From NCBI RefSeq assembly GCF_002148795.1, contig NZ_MPOB01000012.1, positions 1-64,000 on the forward strand: a stretch of DNA of 64,000 bases. Reading direction: 5' to 3'. Under the pieces are notes generated by a model. The model was not told the DNA's origin. It ran no database searches and was given only the letters and a program-made list of their open reading frames with translations. This DNA comes from Oceanibaculum nanhaiense (GTDB lineage Bacteria > Pseudomonadota > Alphaproteobacteria > Oceanibaculales > Oceanibaculaceae). Below, one piece after another: positions 2,233-8,310 of this stretch; within the stretch, counting starts at the first letter, position 1; each line of letters opens with the position of its first letter. The translations under genes and the position numbers were made by a program.

Positions 2233-3204
2233 TTACATATTGGCTGCCTTGACGGCTTCGCCGAAGGAGTCGTGCTTGTTCTTCAGCCAGGCACCGAATT
2301 CCTCACCGAACAGGGCATAGGTCTCGGTCCCGGTCTTCTCCATATGGTCGTTGAACGCCTTGTCCTCGGCGGTCTTGCGGCAGGCCTCGACCAGTACCTT
2401 CATTACTTCCGGCGGGGTGCCTTTCGGGGCACCGATGCCGCGGAACGAGCCGATATCCACCTTGAAGCCGTCAGCGCTGGCCAGCGGCACGCCCTTGATG
2501 CCGGTCTTCGGATCGTCAGAGAACACGGTCAGCACCTTCAACCGGCCATCCTTGTGCCAGGGCGTGACCTCGGCCTTGTCGGCGATGGCGACATTGATGT
2601 GCTTGCCATAGGCCGCCGTCAGCGCCGGACCGGAGCCCTTGTGAGGCACGAAGCGGACATCGATACCCGCCTGGGTCGCGAAGGCGGCACCGGTCAGATG
2701 CGTGTTGCTGCCGGGGCCGGCGGTGCCGAAGGTCAGCTTGCCCGGTTCGGCTTTCGCCTTCTTGACGAGGTCGGCCAGCGAGTTGATGCCGCTGTCCGGA
2801 TGAACCGCCAGGATGGCCGGCGGCGCGGACAGCAGGCAGACCGGCTCGAAATCCTTGTAGCTGACCGGATAGCCGTCGATGGTGTGGGGCGCTGCGGCCA
2901 GGGTGGTGACGATCATGGTGATGACGTACCCATCGGCCTTGGCCAGCGCGCCGTGCGAAAAGCCCACGGCACCGCTGCCGCCCGTGCGGTTGCTGACGAA
3001 GATGTCGCCGCCCAGATGCGGCTGCGCATACTGTGCGAAGATGCGGCCGACCTGGTCGGTGCCGCCGCCCTGCGCGAAGGGGATCACGAGTTCGACTGGC
3101 TTGGACGGAAAACTGTCCGCCTTTACTGCCGGGGCGGTTGCGCACAGCGCCAGTGCCGCCAGCGCCGCCGTGTAACCGGCACGCCTGTTGTGGATGAATG
3201 TCAT
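2233..3204 (-). CDS. tctC: Tripartite tricarboxylate transporter substrate-binding protein (Bug/TctC family)
   Basis: A 323-residue periplasmic binding protein. It has a signal peptide (about residues 1-30, ending VKADS), then the Bug-family landmarks: PSKPVELVIPFAQGGGTDQ at the start of lobe 1, SNRTGGSG with the usual N-R-x-G-G-x-G turn, a GPGSNTHLTGAAF stretch and VPHKGSGPALTA in lobe 2. It captures a carboxylate ligand and delivers it to TctAB. The ATG at 3204 is preceded by GGGAGGAATCC; an upstream ATG at 3222 would overlap that ribosome site. It is the last gene of tctB-tctA-tctC, 20 nt after tctA, with a terminator close behind. The ligand cannot be read from sequence. Confidence 0.92.
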   Translation of the reverse strand: MTFIHNRRAGYTAALAALALCATAPAVKADSFPSKPVELVIPFAQGGGTDQVGRIFAQYAQPHLGGDIFVSNRTGGSGAVGFSHGALAKADGYVITMIVTTLAAAPHTIDGYPVSYKDFEPVCLLSAPPAILAVHPDSGINSLADLVKKAKAEPGKLTFGTAGPGSNTHLTGAAFATQAGIDVRFVPHKGSGPALTAAYGKHINVAIADKAEVTPWHKDGRLKVLTVFSDDPKTGIKGVPLASADGFKVDIGSFRGIGAPKGTPPEVMKVLVEACRKTAEDKAFNDHMEKTGTETYALFGEEFGAWLKNKHDSFGEAVKAANM

Positions 3205-3224: not shown

Positions 3225-4715
3225 TTATGTCGTCTTGTAGGATCGTTTCAGATGCCGAACGCCCTTCATCACGAGCGGGGCGACGAACGGGGCGAAGACC
3301 AGCAGCCAGATGACGGTGCTGATCGGCGTGAAGAGTTCCTGCCATTCGCCGCCAACGACGATGAGCGAACGGGCAAGTTCTCCCTCCACCATCGGCCCGA
3401 GGATCAGGCCGATAATGAGTGGCGCGCGCGGGATACCGGTCTTGACCATGACGTAGCCGACCATGCCGGCGGCGAACATGATCAGCACATCGACCGGATG
3501 GTTGCGCATGGCGTAGGACCCCAGCACGCAAAGCAGCAGAATGCCGGGCGTCAGGATGCTTTCGGGGATTTGCAGCACACGCGCGAACAGCTTGGCGCCG
3601 GACAGTCCGAAGATCAGCAGCAGGATGTTCGCGACGAAGACACCGGCGAAGATCTGGTAGACCAGCGGCGCGTTGTTGTGCAGCAGCAAGGGACCGGGCT
3701 GCAGCCCATGCGTCATAAAAGTGCCCAGCATGATCGCGGTTACCGCGCCGCCGGGGATGCCCAGGGTCAGCAGAGGGATCAGCGAGCCACCGGTCGCCGC
3801 ATTGTTTGCCGATTCGGCGCAGGCGATACCTTCCGGGGAGCCGGTGCCGAAGCGTTCCGGCTGGCGTGACATGTGCTTGCCCTGGCTGTAGCCGACAATG
3901 GCGGCGACGTCGCTACCTGCGCCGGGAACCGCGCCGACAATGGTGCCGATGACACTGGAACGTAGCTGCGCCGGCAGGATGCGGGCCAGCACGCTGCGCC
4001 CGGGAATGATCCGGTTGACGCGCAGGGCGCGGCGCGGCGCACGGCCGATACGCTCGATGCTCAGCAGGGTTTCCGGCACCGCGAACAGGCCAATGGTGAC
4101 CGGAATGAAGGAGACCCCGCCCATCAGCAGCACATAGCCGAAATGATAGCGCGAGACGCCATAGGTCTCGTCGATGCCGATGCCGGCCAGGAACAGGCCG
4201 ATGAATCCGGCGAACAGCCCCTTCAGGAACGATCCGCCGGACAGTGCCGCCATCGCCGTCAGCGCGAATACGGTTAGTGCCAGATATTCGCGCGGTCCGA
4301 AGGCCAGGGCGAAATCGGCGATGGGGTAGGACAGCAGCATGAGTGCGATCGCGCTGAGCATGCCGCCCAGAAACGACGATAGGGTGGCGATACCCAATGC
4401 TATGCCCGGTTTGCCCTGCCGCGACATGGCATAGCCGTCCAGCGTCGTGGCGACCGCCCCTGGCGTGCCGGGAATACCCAGCAGGATGGCCGACAGCGAC
4501 CCGCCATAGACGGCACCGCAATAGACGCCAACCAGGCTGAGGATACCGGCCAGCGGGTCCATCGTGAAGGTCAGCGGGCTCAGCAGGGCCACGCCCATGG
4601 TGGCCGAGATGCCCGGCATGGCTCCTGCCACGATGCCGAGCAGCACCGCGCCCGCAAGCAGCAGCAGGATGTTCATCTCCGTGACGATGGAGAAGCCTTC
4701 CATCAGCAGGCTCAT
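3225..4715 (-). CDS. tctA: Tripartite tricarboxylate transporter large permease TctA
   Basis: A 496-residue polytopic membrane protein of normal TctA length, with about 10-12 helices. It shows the TctA signatures: GAMPGISATMGVALL near residues 30-45, SLSAILLGIPGTPGAVATTLDG near 70-90, and the second-half repeat GAVPGAGSDVAAIVGY plus GSLIPLLTLGIPGG. The two PG-rich repeats form the translocation core. It works with the small TctB subunit and the Bug protein in Na+- or proton-driven uptake of carboxylates. The start overlaps the tctB stop as ATGA (4712-4715), indicating translational coupling. A GGAGGG ribosome site lies upstream inside tctB. Confidence 0.95.
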   Translation of the reverse strand: MSLLMEGFSIVTEMNILLLLAGAVLLGIVAGAMPGISATMGVALLSPLTFTMDPLAGILSLVGVYCGAVYGGSLSAILLGIPGTPGAVATTLDGYAMSRQGKPGIALGIATLSSFLGGMLSAIALMLLSYPIADFALAFGPREYLALTVFALTAMAALSGGSFLKGLFAGFIGLFLAGIGIDETYGVSRYHFGYVLLMGGVSFIPVTIGLFAVPETLLSIERIGRAPRRALRVNRIIPGRSVLARILPAQLRSSVIGTIVGAVPGAGSDVAAIVGYSQGKHMSRQPERFGTGSPEGIACAESANNAATGGSLIPLLTLGIPGGAVTAIMLGTFMTHGLQPGPLLLHNNAPLVYQIFAGVFVANILLLIFGLSGAKLFARVLQIPESILTPGILLLCVLGSYAMRNHPVDVLIMFAAGMVGYVMVKTGIPRAPLIIGLILGPMVEGELARSLIVVGGEWQELFTPISTVIWLLVFAPFVAPLVMKGVRHLKRSYKTT

Positions 4716-6091
4716 GGCAGCAATCCCTCCATCAGGGCCGATGTGGGCAGGACGACGTTGAAGACCTTGCTGAACAGCAGGTAGGTCCCGATGCTGAGGA
4801 AGGCTGCTACGGCGATGGAGAGTACCGCCTTGGCCGGTGTCAGTTTCGGCCACAGCAGCAGTGTCAGGCCGGCGACATAGAAGAAGGCGGACAGGACGAA
4901 GCCGAGCTGCATCATCGCGATGGGGAAGAGGGCCAGTCCGGCGATCGCCACCACCAGCCCGATGATCTTCCCGGCGGGCAGACTGTCGGACAGAGTTTCC
5001 CGGGGGGTGAATTGCGCGTGGCAGCGCTGCTGGATATCGATGATGCCTTTCATCTCCTCCTGCGAGAGGAAGCGCCAGATCCGCGCTGACATATCCGTTT
5101 CGTTGGCAGGCGGCAGCTCTGCGGCTGCTTCCGAAAATGCTGCAGACAAGGCGTTTTGCTTTTTAGCGGGCATGCCCGCCGGCACCATCAGCGCCGCCCA
5201 ATGACCGGAGACCACAGCGGCCCCATGGTCCAGAAAGGTGGGAGCGCCCTGCACTTCCGGCGGCTGGTCGCCAGGTTCCGACAAAAGACCGATGCACCGC
5301 ACCTGTCCGGTCGTGATTGCCTGCCGTGCCTGCGAAAAGCTGAGTATGGCGGCATCGATATCCCCGGCATTGATGGCGCCGATCAGTGAAGGAATGTCGT
5401 CGCTGTGAACCGGCCGGAAGGACAGTCCCTGCGCGGTGGCAAGCCAGCGCCCCACGGCATGGTCGATATCGATGTGATGACCGAAACCGAGGCGGACTGT
5501 TTGGCCCTTGTTCCACAAATCGCCTGGATTCTGCCACTGGCTGGCGGGCCGCACGACCAGCACATCGGGGTCGAAAAACAGGCCACCCACTGGCTCCATA
5601 CGTCCGTCACAGAATGCGGCGGCATGGAAGTTCGGTAGGCTCGTCATGTCGGATGAGACGATGGCAAGAGCATTGCCGCGCACCCCCTTCCAGAGGGCGG
5701 AGAAACGCCCTTCGCCATCCTTGGTGACGACCTGTATCCGGGTGCCGAGGCGCGTGCCCATGATTTCCGCGAGCTGGCGCAGCCGAAGATCGTCCTGCAG
5801 CCCGGCCTGGAAGGGCGAGTAGAGGCGAAGCTCCCGCACGGCGAGCGCCTTCGCGATCAGAACGCTCGTGATTGCCAGCAGACCGGCAAGCGCAAAGACC
5901 GGATAGGCGCCGGGGCCGATGGTGCCGTCGCGCCACAATTGCAGCGACAGGCCATGCCACAGCAAGAGGGCGGCAACGGCCCAGACGATGCCAAGGAAGA
6001 TGAGTTCGAGCCTGGCACCGCCCCGGTCGGGCAGAATCGTGGCGTGGCCGGGCTGACCGCCTTCCCCGAGGGTGGGGTAGGCCGCCGGCAT
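4712..6091 (-). CDS. tctB: TctB-like small permease with an embedded Bug/TctC-type solute-binding domain
   Basis: TctB proteins usually have about 150 residues and four to five helices. This one has about 459. Residues 28-50 and 62-80 are the first two helices, including the GPGAYP turn typical of TctB. Residues 375-459 are the remaining helices with the TctB-like QLGFVLSAFFY and LLFSKVFNVVLP ending. Between them lie about 290 soluble residues that follow the full Bug fold: a lobe-1 start near 90, IQVVTKDGEGRF, DPDVLVVRPAS, FRPVHSDDIPSLIGAINAGDID, then VPAGMPAKK near the end. A binding-protein domain therefore seems inserted into the membrane subunit. Positive-inside reasoning would put it in the cytoplasm, so topology is unsettled. 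The start is uncertain: ATG 6184 or GTG 6271 in the same frame would only add hydrophilic residues. Confidence 0.8.
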   Translation of the reverse strand: MPAAYPTLGEGGQPGHATILPDRGGARLELIFLGIVWAVAALLLWHGLSLQLWRDGTIGPGAYPVFALAGLLAITSVLIAKALAVRELRLYSPFQAGLQDDLRLRQLAEIMGTRLGTRIQVVTKDGEGRFSALWKGVRGNALAIVSSDMTSLPNFHAAAFCDGRMEPVGGLFFDPDVLVVRPASQWQNPGDLWNKGQTVRLGFGHHIDIDHAVGRWLATAQGLSFRPVHSDDIPSLIGAINAGDIDAAILSFSQARQAITTGQVRCIGLLSEPGDQPPEVQGAPTFLDHGAAVVSGHWAALMVPAGMPAKKQNALSAAFSEAAAELPPANETDMSARIWRFLSQEEMKGIIDIQQRCHAQFTPRETLSDSLPAGKIIGLVVAIAGLALFPIAMMQLGFVLSAFFYVAGLTLLLWPKLTPAKAVLSIAVAAFLSIGTYLLFSKVFNVVLPTSALMEGLLP

Positions 6092-6370: not shown

Positions 6371-7288
6371 TCAGGAGACGGCCGCCACAGCCTGTACCAT
6401 TGCGGCACGGTCGTCGGTCTGCGGACGTTCGAACAGCCGTCCGGTTTCCTGCTCGCCTTCCAGGGAACAGCGGAACATGACGCGCGGCTGGGTCTGGTCG
6501 AAATCGCCTAGTGCCACATGGCTGGTGCAGCGATTATCCCACATCACCACGTCGCCGAGCTGCCAGCGATGACGGAAGACGAATTCCGGCGCGGTCGCGT
6601 GCTCGTTCAGCATGTCGAGCAGGTGCCGGCTTTCATCATCGCCCATGCCGACGAAGCCGCGCACACGCTGGCCGACCAGATAGGATTTCCGCTTCGTCTT
6701 CGGGTGGATACGGATGACCGGATGGATCATCGGCGGGTTGCGCCGCTTCATCTCGGCGATGACATCGGGCGACCGCTGCTCCAGGCCGCGGATCAGAGTC
6801 ACATCATGAATCGCCTCCAGCCCCTCCAGCAATTGCTGGATGCGCGGGCTCAGCGTCTCATAGGCGAGATAGAGATTTGCCCACATGGTGTCACCGCCGA
6901 CCGGCGGCTTCTCCTTGCAATGCAGGATGGCGCCCTTGGCCGGGCGGGGCGTGTAGGTGAGGTCGGTATGCCAGTTCCGGCCGGAATTATGCGTGCCGGA
7001 CTTCTTGCCGTTCACCATCTTGTTGGACAGCACGAGGATTTCCCGGTGGTCCGGGTGCAGCGTCGTGGGCGCCTGCGATTCCTGCGGGTCCAGCAACCCG
7101 AAATTCCGCGAAAAGGCGATCTGCTGCTCGGGCGACAGGTCCTGACCCGGAAACACCAGCACCAGATGCTTCAGCCATGCCTGGTTGATGACGCTCTGGT
7201 CGGCCGAAGACAACGGCTTGCTGAGGTCCACGCCGGTGACTTCCGCGCCCGCGGCGAATCCAAGAGGAGCAATCTTGATTTGGCTCAT
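6371..7288 (-). CDS. TauD/TfdA family Fe(II)/2-oxoglutarate-dependent dioxygenase
   Basis: A 305-residue non-haem iron oxygenase. The facial triad is visible: H107-x-D109 in NWHTDLTY and H257 in NRCTSHVALGD, with arginines at 269/273 (QPRVMFR) to hold 2-oxoglutarate. The family hydroxylates substrates such as taurine, alkyl sulfates or aryloxyalkanoates, releasing sulfite, sulfate or a phenol; which one cannot be read here. The ATG at 7288 is used; the GTG two codons upstream is less likely. It lies upstream of the tct genes on the same strand after 279 nt, and is divergent from a GntR gene. The start of its transcript carries a promoter overlapping a GntR-type operator. It may act on whatever the tct system imports. 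Confidence 0.9.
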   Translation of the reverse strand: MSQIKIAPLGFAAGAEVTGVDLSKPLSSADQSVINQAWLKHLVLVFPGQDLSPEQQIAFSRNFGLLDPQESQAPTTLHPDHREILVLSNKMVNGKKSGTHNSGRNWHTDLTYTPRPAKGAILHCKEKPPVGGDTMWANLYLAYETLSPRIQQLLEGLEAIHDVTLIRGLEQRSPDVIAEMKRRNPPMIHPVIRIHPKTKRKSYLVGQRVRGFVGMGDDESRHLLDMLNEHATAPEFVFRHRWQLGDVVMWDNRCTSHVALGDFDQTQPRVMFRCSLEGEQETGRLFERPQTDDRAAMVQAVAAVS

Positions 7289-7325
7289 TTCCACCCATCC
7301 GTTTTCTGCTTTGTGTTATTGATAA

Positions 7326-7355: not shown

Positions 7356-7569
7356 ATGAATCCAAAACATAATCAGGAAAATGGTTTTGCCTTGCGCTAT
7401 CCATTTGAAAAACAGTTAATATCCTTCAGTATTCTCCATATGGTGGTGGCGATGGGAATCGTTGCGGTTTTTTGGCTCCCTTCGACGAAAAAGAAGACGA
7501 GATTGAAGCTATGGCGAGTTGTGCCGGAACTGGCGATCCCTCACCCCAACGATAAGGCTGCGGCAGCTG

Positions 7570-8310
7570 ATGGACGAGAACGACATGGATAAGCTTGATA
7601 TCGTCCCGCTTGGAAGGTCAGCGAAATCGCTTCCGGCCCAGCTTGCCGATCTCCTGCTGGCTGAGGTCATGACAGGGCGCCTCAAGCCCGGCGATCGGCT
7701 GAAGGAGGAAGCCCTGGCACAGCAGCACGCCGTGAGCCGGGCGACCGTGCGCGAGGCGCTGATTGCGCTGGAGAAGCAGGGCTATGTGGTCCGCATCCCG
7801 CGATCCGGCGCCCGCATTGCCGAATATTCACAGGAAGATGTCAGCTATATTTTCGAGATCAGGGCGGCTCTGCTGGCCGTCGCGGCCGGCCGCGTCGCCC
7901 GGCTGAACGATGATTCTTTCAAAGCCACCTTCTTGGAGATCGTCGCCAGTCTGGAAAGCATCGCCGGCGACGAGTCCGCCACCCCGCAGGCCTTCGCCAG
8001 CGAATCGGTGCGCGCTCAGCTGTTCCTGGTGAATAATTCGGGCAACCAGCGTCTGCCGGAGCTCTACGAACGGCTGGCCGGAATGGGCACCTGGCAGCTC
8101 ATCCGTGGCCGCTCCATGAGCTTCCTTACCGCCGATGACAGGAAACAGTCAGCCGCTGACTGGCGCCAGCTGGCAACGGCGATCACGCTAGGCAGCCAGG
8201 TGAAAGCCGAGCGCGCGGCACGCCAGTTGCTCGAGCATTCCGCCATACGTGTCCGGGCGAATCTCGCGAGGATCGGGCAAAGCGAGGAACCTGTTTCCAG
8301 CCTGGGCTGA
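7570..8310 (+). CDS. GntR family transcriptional regulator (FadR/FCD-like)
   Basis: A 246-residue one-component regulator. The N-terminal winged helix-turn-helix spans about residues 15-80: LPAQLADLLLAEVMTGRLKPGD, then AVSRATVREALIALEKQGYV as recognition helix and RIPRSGARIAE as wing. The rest is an all-alpha ligand domain of FCD type (EIRAALLAVAAGRVAR onward). It is divergent from the dioxygenase gene and faces a palindrome fitting the FadR-subfamily consensus, so it probably controls the dioxygenase and perhaps tct. ATG 7570 is chosen; ATG 7585 in frame is equally possible and neither ribosome site is strong. Confidence 0.88.
   Translation: MDENDMDKLDIVPLGRSAKSLPAQLADLLLAEVMTGRLKPGDRLKEEALAQQHAVSRATVREALIALEKQGYVVRIPRSGARIAEYSQEDVSYIFEIRAALLAVAAGRVARLNDDSFKATFLEIVASLESIAGDESATPQAFASESVRAQLFLVNNSGNQRLPELYERLAGMGTWQLIRGRSMSFLTADDRKQSAADWRQLATAITLGSQVKAERAARQLLEHSAIRVRANLARIGQSEEPVSSLG

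Follow-up and report, generated by a model that had tools for sequence, protein, structure and literature searches.

Structure of the gene

What is a receptor fold doing inside TctB, a protein 'with unknown function' (PMC11452294)? This question is raised by one gene in the 64,000-nucleotide stretch of Oceanibaculum nanhaiense DNA analysed here (the window; contig NZ_MPOB01000012.1). An earlier note on the same DNA had described the gene as a TctB-like permease with an entire Bug-type binding domain inserted between its helices. Our analysis has confirmed that 4712–6091 encodes a TctB subunit of a tripartite tricarboxylate transporter (TTT) with a complete Bug/TctC fold in the loop between transmembrane helices 2 and 3 (TM2 and TM3). 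The open frame starts with ATG and has no internal stops. Its parts are the following:

4712..6091, minus strand: tctB::bug fusion gene, 459 aa (single open frame and profiles)
5840..6010, minus strand: N-terminal half of TctB with TM1, the GPGAYP turn and TM2, residues ~28–84 (TctB profile 7–67, model helices 24–54 and 60–84)
5000..5836, minus strand: inserted Bug/TctC substrate-binding domain, residues ~86–364 (profiles, PDB matches, model)
4715..4975, minus strand: C-terminal half of TctB with TM3–TM5, residues 373–459 (PF07331 65–137, own profile 80–154)

Both ends of the protein match TctB, in the split order that had been proposed. Pfam TctB (PF07331) matches in two stretches with E=7.8e-11 and 42.7 bits, which is above the curated cut-off of 29.1 bits; the best stretch covers residues 373–449 (model positions 65–137). 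A profile of our own, built from 30 ordinary TctBs with the fusions left out, also matches twice, at residues 31–89 (profile 7–67) and 375–453 (profile 80–154). NCBIfam gave no match to the fusion. According to an alignment of five fusions and the 30 TctBs the insertion site is the TM2–TM3 loop, which in ordinary TctBs is variable and ~22 residues long. The order of TctB landmarks is kept in the fusions, with TM1, GPxxFP (GPGAYP in the window protein) and TM2 before the insert and TM3, GF, TM4, TM5 and LP after it. With TctB (PF07331, TC 2.A.80) the protein shares this split profile, the GPxxFP turn, the GF and LP landmarks and an adjoining tctA. It differs in having 459 aa instead of about 150 (143–174 aa for most of the 30), owing to a Bug domain of ~280 residues, so that the sizes given in the earlier note hold. 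No description of a TctB that carries a binding domain as an insert was found in the open-access literature searched, and the fusion is filed here as a new TctB variant.

Bug profiles and solved Bug structures match the middle of the protein and nothing else. Pfam TctC (PF03401) covers residues 138–354 with E=4e-5 and 23.7 bits, slightly below its curated cut-off of 27 bits. Our own TctC profile, from which the fusions were left out, matches residues 75–355 with E=1e-38; ordinary TctBs compared with this profile as a control gave no match (best E=2.1). When the fusion was compared with PDB sequences by phmmer, residues 83–328 matched the Bug/TctC chains 25hk (5.9e-10) and 4x9t (2e-9), and a profile of five fusions reached 6.6e-20 against PDB Bug chains.

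The predicted structure contains the whole two-lobed Bug fold. Prediction from a three-row alignment gave a pLDDT of 43, and the model used had 14 TctC rows added to the alignment, so its fold match agrees with the sequence match without being separate evidence from it. Much of the Bug core of the insert is modelled at pLDDT 86–92, and the TctB membrane part has low confidence (about 50–70). Among solved structures the TctC protein 4x9t matches the model best (Foldseek E=1.5e-17), with Z 28.1 and rmsd 2.8 over 277 residues, while unrelated binding proteins reach Z 12–15. An absence of Bug similarity in the middle region, which the earlier note had named as the finding that would speak against its reading, is ruled out by these profile and fold matches.

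With the TctC/Bug proteins (PF03401; 4x9t, 25hk, 2qpq Bug27, BugD) the insert shares the two-lobed fold and the P-F-x-x-G-...-D loop. Unlike them it is embedded in a membrane protein, is probably cytosolic, has GG changed to GL and has no signal peptide of its own, the domain beginning a few residues past TM2. With its altered signature loop, and since it is not secreted as a receptor, the insert counts as a Bug-fold domain but not as a TctC protein.

Operon and neighbourhood

The genes around the fusion in the window are the following:

3225..4715, minus strand: tctA, large membrane subunit, 496 aa (PF01970 E=9e-149)
4712..4715, minus strand: overlap (ATGA) between the stop of tctB::bug and the start of tctA, translational coupling (sequence)
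2233..3204, minus strand: tctC, separate Bug-type receptor with an N-terminal signal-like sequence (PF03401 E=3.1e-45)
6371..7294, minus strand: TauD/TfdA-type 2-oxoglutarate dioxygenase, upstream and in the same direction (PF02668 E=4.2e-73)
7519..8310, plus strand: GntR/FCD-type regulator, divergent (PF00392 E=1.9e-17, PF07729 E=2e-8)

The operon has its own TctC, as had been noticed earlier, and the ATGA overlap with tctA argues for joint assembly. In all six fusion loci found, tctA, a separate tctC and a TauD-type dioxygenase gene adjoin the fusion; the conserved neighbourhood consists of the dioxygenase, TctA, TctC and mostly a GntR gene. Gene order varies, being B-A-C in most loci and C-B-A in one (G746); at both loci from another family the dioxygenase gene is divergent. 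Since a separate TctC is kept at every locus, the insert is not its replacement. The window genome gave no other TctB match. A substrate lead from the TauD neighbour was looked for in the literature and none was found.

Elsewhere in the window, at ~940–1621 of the plus strand, there is a protein with a long methionine-rich repeat (GMMHPGMMGPGMM...), after which comes, at 1618–1905, a short membrane protein whose end is SHOCT-like. A role in metal (copper) handling is our guess for this pair. The contig of one other fusion (L001) has a gene for a heavy-metal (copper-like) P-type ATPase beside the fusion operon.

Distribution of the fusion

The earlier note had suggested listing other genomes with this architecture. 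In total the searches covered about 815 different genomes, the query not being the same throughout, and five further fusions were found, which with that of the window makes six homologous fusions in three bacterial families. The homologues come from a marine alphaproteobacterial MAG (79% identity), from Thalassobaculum litoreum (about 55%), from Thalassobaculum sp. OXR-137, where it lies on a plasmid (53%; its annotation, the one looked at, says no more than TctB family), and from two genomes of another family, the last of them distantly similar (250 bits). Two relatives of the window genome from the same genus are without the fusion, and its distribution is patchy. Some TctB matches fall in long open frames; there may be TctB fusions that arose independently. 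The other objection raised in the earlier note was that a sequencing or frameshift artefact had joined two genes. The same fusion is found in six genomes, some of them distant and one a complete plasmid record, and a sequencing, assembly or frameshift artefact is out; nothing was found in its favour, and we give this explanation practically no credence.

Some observations were made alongside. In NZ_CP139716.1 (L079) the whole TauD-TctB::Bug-TctA-TctC cluster and a GntR gene lie on a 169 kb plasmid that is predicted to be mobilizable, and the cluster adjoins a RelE/ParE-type toxin-antitoxin pair. Viral contigs searched for the fusion and for TctB gave no match. Contigs classed as viral (L083–L105) encode Bug/TctC-type binding proteins, e.g. 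L088 (182 kb) and L097 (161 kb), although some of these may be misclassified; BFVD also lists Bug proteins from uncultured Caudovirales phages.

Topology

TctB has been described as having 4–5 helices and a cytoplasmic N-terminus (PMC5812351). Lys and Arg residues in the N-terminus, loop 2–3 and loop 4–5 outnumber those on the other side in 27 of the 30 ordinary TctBs and in all five fusions counted (7, 8, 12, 7 and 9 vs 2, 2, 3, 3 and 1). From this distribution of charge the insertion loop is predicted to be cytoplasmic. Arginines 86 and 89 in the flank sit in Bug strand 1, where ordinary Bugs likewise have Lys or Arg, so the charge signal is in part unrelated to topology; in a hand count with R86 excluded five of five fusions still agree. 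Helix counting, on which the earlier note had placed the insert on the cytoplasmic side, agrees with the charge prediction, and by both the insert is probably in the cytoplasm.

Origin, selection and ligand loops

In a phylogenetic tree the domains of the fusions are separated from the TctCs of the same operons, each group being a clade with 100/100 support. A recent duplication of the operon's TctC is thereby out as the origin of the insert. The stem branch of the fused clade is long (2.8 changes per site). In two close pairs dN/dS is about 0.18 and 0.14 for the Bug part and 0.14 and 0.20 for the TctB part, which indicates that both parts are under purifying selection. The low values in the Bug part argue that the insert is used.

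Conservation in the insert is especially high in the two ligand-loop stretches of domain 1, with 6 of 10 and 5 of 10 positions invariant in the six proteins vs 47 of 282 overall. The family's GG-x-(T/S)-D ligand-loop signature has become GL-x-(D/H)-D in all six fusions. The second Gly is Leu in each, and the pocket is therefore altered. Gly21 and Thr22 of Bug27 are taken by us to lie in this loop. Docking to Bug27 has indicated that the main-chain amides of these two residues hold the carboxylate of the ligand (PMC11452294). Given the change from GG to GL, the insert may not bind a carboxylate. The domain-2 ligand loop has an HHxDxxH motif (residues 205–211, ~5459–5479 of the minus strand) that is invariant in five of the six proteins and absent from the sixth (L110); the idea of a metal site at this motif was dropped because of that absence.

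Possible role of the inserted domain

The earlier note had left the choice between a tethered second binding module and a regulatory one. The evidence favours a regulatory, cytosolic domain over a tethered receptor. Our preferred, still tentative, explanation is that the insert is a cytosolic ligand-sensing domain that controls TctA by trans-inhibition or gating. We favour it because the binding fold is complete and conserved, the external receptor is intact, the gene is coupled to tctA by the ATGA overlap and the inner side of the membrane is predicted for the insert. The membrane core would keep the canonical N-in topology, with the inserted domain hanging into the cytoplasm, where it would bind the imported compound or a product of the neighbouring TauD-type reaction. 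Opening and closing of the domain would pull on TM2 and TM3 of TctB, so that a full internal pool would slow or gate the TctA carrier while the external TctC still captured substrate outside. Such a device for trans-inhibition would be built from the transporter family's own receptor fold. In general terms, an insert facing the cytosol suggests an importer that senses what the cell already contains. It is conceivable, and we put it forward with more reserve, that an SBP-dependent secondary importer controls its own activity through a copy of its receptor fold that sits in the cytosol as part of TctB. No report of a regulatory effect was found for any TctB.

The main rival explanation is that the topology is inverted or altered and the Bug domain is periplasmic. 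It would then serve, next to the free TctC, as another receptor, a tethered one, and deliver a second substrate to TctA. The known role of Bug/TctC proteins is that of periplasmic receptors, joining of receptor and transporter exists in fused TAXI-GltS proteins (PMC12344293), and the insert keeps the two-lobed fold and the conserved ligand loops. The charge distribution favours the opposite side in 5/5 fusions and 27/30 relatives, however, and for a 280-residue loop that follows two helices, a tail carrying 2–4 positive residues would have to be inserted N-out, which makes the periplasmic arrangement rather unlikely in our opinion. Alternatively, the domain may have lost ligand binding and now act as a scaffold or docking element, which could for instance serve dimerisation or, in the case of a cytosolic domain, the TauD enzyme. 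The change of GG to GL in the carboxylate loop, the loss of HHxDxxH from the sixth fusion and the stem branch of 2.8 changes per site are all consistent with such a loss. Yet the ligand-loop stretches belong to the most conserved parts of the insert and the two-lobed fold is wholly retained under purifying selection; we regard the scaffold as unlikely.

PBP folds are common in sensors, and the fold matches of the model include BvgS and AioX, so the insert could signal to another protein with transport unaffected. The conserved neighbourhood of the fusion loci showed no gene for a sensor kinase, though, and the ATGA coupling ties the gene to tctA; it is improbable that the insert is such a sensor. 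The cytosolic domain controlling TctA is compared with known systems below.

Comparison with known systems and significance

A review of the TTT family mentions fusions of TctA and TctB only as 'rare cases' (PMC5812351). These are fusions of TTT subunits too, but they join both membrane subunits and contain no binding domain. Cytosolic ligand-binding domains that inhibit importers are known from MetNI and ModABC (PMC10710835). The proposed likeness is a cytosolic ligand-binding domain attached to an importer; the domains of MetNI and ModABC are C-terminal on ABC ATPases and have other folds, and regulation in the present case is our proposal.

The fusion is a natural join of a ligand-binding domain to two inner TctB helices, under selection in several lineages, and offers a direct handle on the role of TctB. 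Feedback control becomes a possibility for the TTT class. If the proposal is true, a Bug domain would function in the cytosol, a TTT system would possess a domain for trans-inhibition, and there would be evidence of TctB moving, or being sensed, in the course of transport. If the topology is inverted, a TTT system would have a second receptor that is tethered. None of these was found described in the literature searched. In TAXI-GltS fusions (PMC12344293) a substrate-binding domain is likewise covalently joined to a secondary transporter. Their binding domain is N-terminal to the carrier, whereas the insert here lies between the helices of the helper subunit; the fusion of the window also keeps a separate receptor, and its binding domain is probably inside the cell.
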